A stretch of 64,000 nucleotides of DNA from NCBI GenBank assembly GCA_027972325.1, contig JAPMOS010000080.1, forward strand, positions 111,001 through 175,000. Reading direction: 5' to 3'. Below the pieces are notes generated by a model. That model was not told the origin of the DNA. It ran no database searches and worked only from the letters and a program-made list of their open reading frames with translations. The first letter of the stretch is position 1; each line of letters starts with the position of its first letter. Below, in pieces: positions 11,101 to 61,375 of the stretch. This DNA is from Paratrimastix pyriformis (taxonomy: Eukaryota > Preaxostyla > Paratrimastigidae). The position numbers and the translations under genes are program-made.

Positions 11101-14100
11101 TTGAGACGCACAACCAGTGCCTCAGGGGCCACTGATCAAGGAGGCGGGCGGTATCAATATAATCAGGGCCCGTCGCCACCCTTTTCTCGATTTCCTCTCA
11201 AGTTCTGCTTTCAGATCGATTCGAGGTGTTCCCATGCCCCCATCCCGAGTTAGTGGACTCTCTCTTTTGCGGTCTGGAATGGGTTTGGGTTCAAAGATAG
11301 TCTCAAACCCCCCCAGGGTTGTACGACGGCCACGGGAGTCTTCCCTTCACGGAGAGCAAGAGCGGCGGGGCGATTGCCGAGTTTGTAAAAACCCACCTGC
11401 GCACCAATATCACCGACGCCATGGTCGATGTTGCCCGGGGCCTGTTGACCCGTGGCCTTGTCCGAAACCTCCGCACCCTCCACCACCCCCACTGCCCTCT
11501 GCCGGACCGGGTTCTACCACCGCGTCTCCACCACCCCCGGTCGAGCCGCCCGGGTCCCCGTCGATCTCACCCCCGGCTATGCGGACATCCCCCGTACCGG
11601 TGTCGGCCATCACCCCCCTGGCGGTGGTGGCTCCAACCCCTGTGGCGCCGATGAGCGTGCCCCTGTCGCCAATCAAGACGGCCCTCCTCGGGTCGCCCAG
11701 GGCCACGCTGGCTGATGCCCTGATGTCACTGACCGCTCCCCAGGTCCGTCTGTGGTGACTGGATTGATGAGTGGATGATTGGATGATGATGAGTGGCACT
11801 GACCGCGGTCCGTCTGTGGTGATGTGGATGCTGACTGGATGACGATGTTTGGATGTTGATAGTGGTGGTGGTGGTGACGATGATGATGACTGGATGATGA
11901 TGATGATGATTGGATGATGATGATGATGATGATGATGATGATGATGATGATGATGATGATGATAATGATGATGATGGTGACTGGATGATGATTGGATGAT
12001 GATGATGATGATGATGATGATGATGATGATGATGATGATGATGATGATGATGATGATGATGATGATGATGATGATGATGATTGATGATGATGATGATGCT
12101 GCTGATGATGCTGCTGATGATGCTGCTGATGATGACTGGATGATGATTGGATGATGTTGATGATGATGTTGATGGCTGGATGATGACTGGATGATGATGA
12201 TGATGATGATGATGATGATGATGATGATGATGATGACGATGATGATGATGATGATGATGATGATTGGATGATGATGATGATTGGATGATCTGGATGATGA
12301 TTGGATGATCTGGATGATGATCTGGATGCCCTGATGTCACTGACCGCACCACAGGTTCGTCTGTGGTCCTCGTCCGGCCCATCACGACCTCCCCCACGGT
12401 TATTTCATGGGCGGCGACGCAAGCATCATCCATCAACACTCAATCATCACCGCCACCCAATCATCCAAGAGTAATCATCATCGTCCAATCATCCCATAGC
12501 ATCCACTCCCCCCCACCACCACACACACACACACCCGCAGCTGCAGAAGGCGGTGGACATGGGATTCGAGAAGACCAACAGCCAGCTCCGGGAATATCTC
12601 CGGCAGGTCTCTGCCACCCCATCCGCCTGCCCCCCCCCCCCTCCCCCCCGGACAGACTGCCCCCCAGCTGCGGGAATATCTCCGGCAGGTCCCTGCCCCC
12701 CCCACTCCCCTCACCCCCCCCCCCCCCCGCCCCAGGCACATCGCTGGCCATGCCTGCTTGCTTGGCTTGTGGTTGCCACCACGGGACGACCTGCTGAACA
12801 AGGGAGGGGCGTTCTTTCTCACATTGTTGGCCTTGTCGTGCCCGCTTGGCTTTGTGTGTGTGCCGACCACAGAACGGCCTGCTCAACAAGGGAGGGGCGT
12901 TCGTTTCTCACACCGCCCTCTGCCCATTGTTGGCCTGTGTTGTCGTGTCTGCGTGGCTTGTGTGTGTGTCGACCACAGAACGACCTGCTCAACAAGGGCG
13001 CGGGCGGTACGACGGCAGTGGTGGCCCTGCTGCTTCCCACCCGAGGTCCGCTTCTTCGATGTTGATGTTGATGTTGATGTCTGTTGATGTTGATGTTGAT
13101 GTTGATTGGATGATGATGTTGTTGTTGTTGTTGTTGTTGTTGTTGTTGTTGTTGTTGTTGTTGTTGTTGTTGTTGTTGTTGTTGTTGTTGATTGGATGAT
13201 GATGATGACCTTGCTGAACAAGGGGCGCGGGCGGTACGACGGCAGTGGTGGCCCTGCTGCTTCCCACCCGAGGTCCGCAGATTTGGGTAGATGCCACATC
13301 ATCATCATGATCATCATCGTCATCGTCATGATCATCATCATCATCATCCAATCATCCAATCAGCATCATCCAATCAGCATCATCCAATCAGCATCATCCA
13401 ATCATCATCATCCAATCAGCATCATCCAATCAGCATCGTCATCATCATCAGCATCCAGTCATCATCCAGTCATCATCATCATCCAGTCATCATCATCATC
13501 CAGTCATCATCCAGTCATCATCATCATCATCATCATCATCATCATCATCATCATCATCATCATCATCATCATCATCATCATCATCATCATCATCATCATC
13601 GTCATCATCATCATCATCATCATCATCATCTATGTCTGTGTGTGTCACCGCTCTGCAGAGGCCCCCGATGCCCACGTGGCCAGCAGGCTGGTGGTCGCCT
13701 CAGTGGGTGATTCTCAAGTCCGCCTCGCCCGCCATCACCCCGACCTCCCCACCCGCCAGCTGCCTCCGATCCTCCCCTTCCTCATCCACGAATGGACCCA
13801 GCCAGCCATCCCCACTCCACCACCCTCTCAAGTGTGCTGAGCCATGCCCCATCACCTTACCCTCCAGTCCTGCGACACATGATTCCGTTCCTTCCTTCGT
13901 CCTGGTTGGACACACACACGACACACACACACACACACACACACACACACACACACACACACACACACACACACACACACACACACGTACAGACACACTC
14001 TGCTTTTAAGACGATCCCTGTTCCTTCCTTCTTCCTGTTTGGACACACACACGGACATACACACTCTGCTTTTAGACGATCCCTGTTCCTTCCTCCTTCC

Positions 14101-61375: not shown

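Follow-up and report, generated by a model that had tools for sequence, protein, structure and literature searches.

Exon-edge copies in introns of Paratrimastix pyriformis point to head-to-tail duplication across exon borders

Introns of Paratrimastix pyriformis contain partial copies of the exon ends that adjoin them. These copies are best read, with good though incomplete confidence, as head-to-tail DNA duplications in which the duplicated unit crosses one exon border and an intact edge stays in the exon. The duplication process is not confined to the contig on which it was noticed but is clustered in certain genes. There is little documentation of why introns lengthen in the absence of mobile elements; in this one genome many stages of intron growth are visible, and the intact exon beside each copy provides a built-in reference.

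Sequence, gene models and scans

The window analysed is the stretch of 64,000 nucleotides at positions 111,001-175,000 of P. pyriformis contig JAPMOS010000080.1 (assembly of 56.06 Mb in 495 contigs); coordinates below count from its first letter. Low-complexity sequence makes up half of it (microsatellite-masked fraction 0.50). Gene models are predictions of a small purpose-built gene finder, made from sequence alone, without RNA. They include a PP2C phosphatase gene (Pfam E 4.9e-23) and a large starch-synthase-like gene with the catalytic domain Glyco_transf_5 (Pfam E 2.6e-39); two other predicted window proteins had no Pfam match. Beyond the window, 20 stretches of 10 kb were sampled at two random places on each of ten contigs, one of the stretches being half N.

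Each exon edge was compared with its own intron, and matches scoring at least 34 were accepted. A second scan used longer edges, after eight model mini-exons judged to be copies had been removed by hand. The set retained across all loci comprises 38 copies, 19 of donor edges and 19 of acceptor edges; one scoring intron, in sampled locus L027, is a coding tandem repeat and was excluded from the copy counts.

Exon edges are copied into their own introns

The duplications are local and direct. At the score threshold of 34, 27 of 642 exon edges matched their own intron (15/317 donor and 12/325 acceptor edges), while pairing edges with other, unrelated introns gave 0/3155 matches and searching the opposite strand of the own intron gave 0/642. 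An annotation-free self-BLAST of the masked window returned 50 direct-repeat against 8 inverted matches less than 1.5 kb apart, and 17 direct against 16 inverted matches at greater distances. The second scan found copies in 18 of the 87 window introns, 30 copies in total, with a maximum of four from one edge. The affected introns are listed here; all come from the edge scan, and those marked were also found by self-BLAST.

11744..12540, + strand, PP2C intron: donor-edge copy 12325-12354 (an extra partial copy near 11793 by eye)
12607..12978, + strand, PP2C intron: donor-edge copy 12664-12688; acceptor-edge copies 12786-12811 and 12873-12899
13046..13658, + strand, PP2C intron: donor-edge copy 13207-13272, with two 1-bp insertions
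15090..16048, + strand, PP2C intron: four acceptor-edge copies, 15544-15585, 15676-15711 (8-bp deletion), 15761-15804 and 15970-16013
40534..40719, + strand, starch-synthase-like intron: acceptor-edge copy 40630-40672
40820..41341, + strand, starch-synthase-like intron: acceptor-edge copies 41137-41160 and 41255-41278
41665..41830, + strand, starch-synthase-like intron: acceptor-edge copy 41748-41778, with a 4-bp deletion
44992..45975, + strand, starch-synthase-like intron: acceptor-edge copy 45884-45928, with CG for AG
46677..47253, + strand, starch-synthase-like intron: donor-edge copy 46793-46815 (lower-scoring 46747-46760); weak acceptor-edge copy 47193-47214
49453..50479, + strand, starch-synthase-like intron: donor-edge copies 49494-49538, 49600-49632 and 49672-49716; weak acceptor-side match 50126-50145
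53098..53391, + strand, starch-synthase-like intron: donor-edge copy 53132-53186, with a 2-bp deletion
53523..54178, + strand, starch-synthase-like intron: donor-edge copies 53572-53614 and 53663-53700, forming with the exon copy three head-to-tail units of ~90 bp
55323..56133, + strand, starch-synthase-like intron: donor-edge copy 55515-55568 (also self-BLAST)
56350..56565, + strand, starch-synthase-like intron: acceptor-edge copy 56515-56535
57228..57548, + strand, starch-synthase-like intron: donor-edge copy 57313-57348, exon bases 36/36 identical
57820..58345, + strand, starch-synthase-like intron: acceptor-edge copies 57888-57930 and 58135-58177 (in the second, TGG is changed to TGA)
59914..60221, + strand, starch-synthase-like intron: acceptor-edge copy 60126-60159, ending 6 bp before the boundary
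60397..60716, + strand, starch-synthase-like intron: donor-edge copy 60482-60554, the second unit of a 158-bp head-to-tail duplication (73 bp of exon plus intron) that starts at 60324 (also self-BLAST)

The initial annotation had described exon ends re-copied in neighbouring introns of a phosphatase gene and a giant GT5 gene. This was borne out, with 19 of the 21 loci it listed passing the threshold. Among window introns of at least 100 bp, copies occur only in the PP2C gene (4/9) and the starch-synthase-like gene (14/38); other genes have 0/31 (18/47 against 0/31, p 2e-5). Locus 59505/59690 scored 32, missing the boundary, and so fell below the threshold; at 55.77/55.97/56.11 kb the copies are visible by eye and lie within one self-BLAST alignment, but their exon part is too short for the threshold. 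Locus 47195/47254 passes with a weak match of 22 bp that has 2 mismatches and lacks AG; at 60112/60222, which also passes, the copy ends 6 bp before the boundary. At window positions 19220-40000, where the models are less certain, introns are equally long and microsatellite-rich as those of the affected genes, yet 0/21 carry copies.

Structure of the duplicated units

Across the 38 copies the aligned exon part has a median length of 37 bp and a median identity of 96%, and in 33 the likeness reaches the splice boundary within 2 bp. The earlier statement that each copy includes AG or GTCYG was thus too strong, since splice motifs are retained only in part: among boundary-reaching copies, GT is kept in 17/17 and GTCYG in 11/17 on the donor side, and AG in 12/16 on the acceptor side. 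In 31 of the 33 boundary-reaching copies the likeness continues for at least 6 bp past the boundary into the intron, a count that stands without a null for comparison. Homology across the splice site indicates that the duplicated unit was genomic DNA rather than spliced RNA. The least disturbed arrays are the 158-bp unit present twice at 60324/60482 and the ~90-bp unit in three copies at 53.5 kb; in most other arrays the spacer has turned into microsatellite. That microsatellite often lies between copies had been noted before, and 71% of spacer bases are indeed masked.

Mobile elements or RNA-templated insertions that carry exon edges, similar to introners, would also place such sequence in introns, and a dispersed element of ~45 bp does recur in introns of the window. 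Introner elements are the same sequence serving as introns in unrelated genes, whereas here each copy matches the exon next to it and no unrelated one (0/3155 unrelated edge-intron pairs), none is inverted (0/642) and the homology spans the splice site. The probability of an introner-like origin is therefore close to nil; the dispersed element is not supported as a source of the copies.

For the 23 local arrays in window genes, expected numbers were obtained by placing arrays at random in the unmasked part of the genic sequence. One exon border is crossed by 14 (3.7 expected), 2 lie in coding sequence (10.4 expected) and 7 are intron-only (7.4 expected). Arrays within coding sequence are thus depleted in the window, as selection predicts.

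These results are best explained by a model in which short head-to-tail duplications, with a spacing of roughly 40 to 600 bp, would have one end within an exon and the other in the adjoining microsatellite-rich intron. In a donor-side event the upstream copy would remain attached to the rest of the exon, and in an acceptor-side event the downstream copy. Since one exon edge with its splice site stays intact after any border-crossing duplication, such an event is tolerated; the leftover copy would drop into the intron, stay out of the mRNA and then decay. Wholly exonic duplications would mostly be purged by selection, while boundary-crossing ones would build up and introns would lengthen, splicing shielding them from selection. 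Microsatellites may be where the duplications start, by slippage, template switching or unequal exchange. Intron hairpins formed by a GAT block followed by an ATC block were considered as a driver and rejected: both blocks occur in only 7/326 introns, in that order in 4/7.

Some observations count against this explanation. The ratio of border-crossing to intron-only arrays is 14:7, and a coding filter alone predicts 1:2 (p 0.0018). The border excess could result partly from slower divergence when one of the two copies is conserved; the remainder is unexplained. The clustering of copies in certain genes is likewise unexplained by the duplication model.

Divergence of the copies

The copies carry frameshifts. 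Of 19 indels, 17 have a length that is not divisible by three, and a net frameshift is present in 14 of the 38 copies. The spacing of copies modulo 3 (13/12/8) shows no reading-frame preference. At the junctions of introns 57820-58345 and 60397-60716, with the copies left out, the predicted protein can be aligned gap-free to a granule-bound starch synthase whose structure is known. These data bear on the suggestion in the initial annotation that the copies may supply alternative splice sites.

Exon and copy differ mostly at third codon positions. The differences fall at codon positions 1:2:3 as 12:7:40 (59 unique events in 38 copies, including that of L041, with repeats of an identical change removed). 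A free copy beside a constrained exon predicts 1:1:2, so that position 3 is in excess (p 0.016); its share of the differences is 0.68 (bootstrap 0.58-0.79). Synonymous differences number 41/59, compared with 27% for random change (37 copies, before L041). Counted by site, 13/903 differ at codon positions 1 and 2, 37/450 at position 3 and 22/254 in unmasked intron flanks. In multi-copy introns the changes private to a single copy also lean to third positions, in tiny numbers. A dead copy that simply decayed would not show this pattern, which counts against the duplication model in its plain form. The excess may reflect duplication between diverged alleles, an assembly that strings alleles together or coding use of the copies; the frameshifts weigh against coding use and, less strongly, against strung-together alleles.

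Under coding use, the copies would be functional alternative exon edges or cassette exons, subject to selection at the protein level. This would account for the synonymous excess, for the GT in 17/17 boundary-reaching donor copies and AG in 12/16 acceptor copies, and for the rarity of stops, one being met in only 2/38 copies read in the exon's frame; some copies were also initially called as in-frame mini-exons by the gene finder. Against it stand the net frameshift in 14/38 copies, the even spread of spacings modulo 3 and the homologue alignment, which has no room for extra peptide at two junctions. We regard functional copies as very unlikely, and the sequence features suggest that the copies are probably not used as coding sequence.

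False (haplotypic) duplications in assemblies consist of nearby copies with allele-like divergence. The exon-edge copies are also close together, and their third-position excess fits two living alleles, while the net frameshifts in 14/38 copies do not. Two diverged haplotypes, or contig ends, set in series at microsatellites would give false tandem copies: the third-position-biased differences look allelic, the junctions adjoin microsatellites, and unpolished read errors could account for the single-base indels in runs of G or C. In contrast to false haplotypic duplication, the copies here carry frameshifts and form periodic arrays of several units, many of them within 20 kb. Regular head-to-tail arrays with at least three copies occur in several introns, and frameshifts are not expected of living alleles. 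In addition, arrays lie on five sampled contigs, the window is without a run of N, and no second copy of window positions 53300-61400 was present among the matches listed (the best 40 of 4840 candidates scored), the others all falling in microsatellites of the query. An assembly artefact is accordingly unlikely.

A tentative extension of head-to-tail duplication, which we hold to be possible but doubtful, is that introns grow by repeated unequal exchange, the two diverged alleles being misaligned at microsatellites that lie in introns close to exon borders. Such an exchange would set one allele's exon edge and splice site beside the other allele's, so that copies would differ from birth mainly at silent sites and would then decay; the process would be genome-wide, still active and clustered by gene. 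If true, introns would thereby preserve a record of earlier allelic variation. Should the third-codon-position excess be upheld, it would allow duplication within one chromosome to be tested against duplication between two.

Occurrence elsewhere in the genome

Exon-edge arrays are also present on other contigs. By manual reading, 6 of the 20 sampled 10-kb loci have such arrays, on five of the ten contigs. The edge scan of the sample found copies in at least 7/296 introns (four in L022 and one each in L028, L032 and L035), a lower bound because copies modelled as exons escape the scan. Further cases come from the annotation-free list: L036, with a donor edge in four copies, L033, and another one in L032. 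Of 24 local arrays in the sample, about 10 are of the boundary-crossing type and about 8 are coding repeats; the depletion in coding sequence is thus a feature of the window and not general. The window is strongly enriched over the sample (18/87 against 7/296 introns with copies, p 7e-8). Among purposely chosen stretches, L041, which adjoins L022, has copies in 1/13 introns, and L042, just upstream of the window, in 0/9.

The proposal that the process is genome-wide therefore holds as far as its presence on other contigs is concerned, but outside a few genes the copies are sparse. Confinement to this contig, which was to speak against the proposal, is answered in part by the six sampled loci with arrays.

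Most of the stretches L017-L036 and L042 have a G+C content of 0.61-0.77; in the window, and in L022 and L032, which are rich in copies, it is 0.54-0.56. L021 and L041 are equally low in G+C as the window, yet have 0 and 1 affected introns.

Relation to known mechanisms of intron change

The pattern is a recurrent form of a published single-event duplication. In the potato RdRp gene, one boundary-crossing duplication is described as having created a new intron (Ma, Lan and Niu 2016, PMC4974935). As in that account, the duplicated unit here spans an intron-exon boundary and carries splicing signals; while the potato account describes one event in one gene, giving a new intron with a cryptic donor, here there are many events in few genes, involving both edges, with the copies inside existing introns. 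Two features of the potato type recur: the unit crosses the boundary (33/38 copies reach it within 2 bp, and 31 of these 33 run on for at least 6 bp into the intron), and the repeats are head-to-tail in the same orientation (inverted 0/642). Internal gene or exon duplication, presented in the same paper as duplication of whole exons or introns (Gao and Lynch 2009, cited in PMC4974935), shares tandem duplication within genes, whereas the unit described here includes an exon only in part, so that the predicted protein is unchanged. Apart from the potato case, our search of the open-licence literature brought up no description of such duplications recurring across exon borders in a single genome.

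A review counts tandem genomic duplication of AGGT-bearing exon segments among the supported mechanisms of intron gain (PMC3443670), and the initial annotation had linked the copies to this duplication. Both involve tandem duplication that gives extra splice sites, and tandem duplicates with GT and AG sites do exist here. In the AGGT model as set out in that review, a wholly exonic segment is duplicated and an intron is made, and the surroundings of a donor should then resemble those of the acceptor of the same intron. This likeness was absent: in 385 introns, in-register identity averaged 10.7 of 36 positions against 10.3 for random pairs with no excess in the tail, the highest value (19) lay below the null 99.9th percentile (20), and the top local donor-acceptor score (24) lay below the null maximum (26). 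Moreover, the copies sit in existing introns and mostly cross a boundary rather than being wholly exonic. Intron creation from AGGT segments is exceedingly unlikely as their source, and the link drawn to it is not supported. With the AGGT signature not detected, the process looks like intron growth, not intron birth, in keeping with the other part of the earlier proposal, that the copies are local tandem duplications which keep splice sites and lengthen introns. The spare splice sites are a possible source of new exons or introns.

Donor sites and U1 snRNA

All eight U1 snRNA loci found (L009-L016) have the 5' end ATACAGACCTTGC, and the canonical U1 5' end is ATACTTACCTG. Against the Rfam U1 model they align over the full length (1-166) with 50.8-60.2 bits, below the gathering score of 69.5; a canonical-type U1 pattern, with up to one mismatch allowed, was not found in the genome. 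The changed end ATACAGACCTTGC is complementary to AAG/GTCTGT. The donor model used for counting specified GT only, and its coding and acceptor parts came from training with a GTCYG prior. Under this model, GTCCG (111) and GTCTG (96) together accounted for 207/568 introns, 6.8 and 6.1 times background, and GTAAG for 2 among the 568. A GTCCG donor has one A-C mismatch with the changed U1. The complementarity suggests that U1 5' end and 5' splice site have likely undergone compensatory change. No description of the changed 5' end was found in the open-licence literature; with its donor consensus and matching U1 change, this genome is a natural example of U1 snRNA co-evolving with the 5' splice site.

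In the one U6 gene read, ACAGAG is kept. A CCCATAAT-type motif lies ~50-70 bp upstream of six U1 loci (L009-L013, L016) and of one U6 gene (L037), and from this placement looks like a shared snRNA promoter element. Palindromes of the form TTATGGG...CCCATAA, related to the CCCATAAT-type motif, recur in L032:2770-5035.

Other features of the window

The dispersed element of ~45 bp is centred around TGTCCGATTGATCAGTCCCTTTGCTCCA and occurs at window positions 15921, 39693, 40583, 41218, 43094, 45010, 45156 and 45846 and at L014:275. It lies in predicted introns in 8/8 window cases, and an AC microsatellite often follows it. Two tRNA genes, tRNA-Gln (ctg) at 42061-42135 and tRNA-Glu (ctc) at 53904-53970, sit in sense orientation inside starch-synthase-like introns. 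Just downstream of the coding part of the starch-synthase-like gene, a tandem array with a period of 142 bp extends over 61545-62197, its best pair of units being 96.5% identical.
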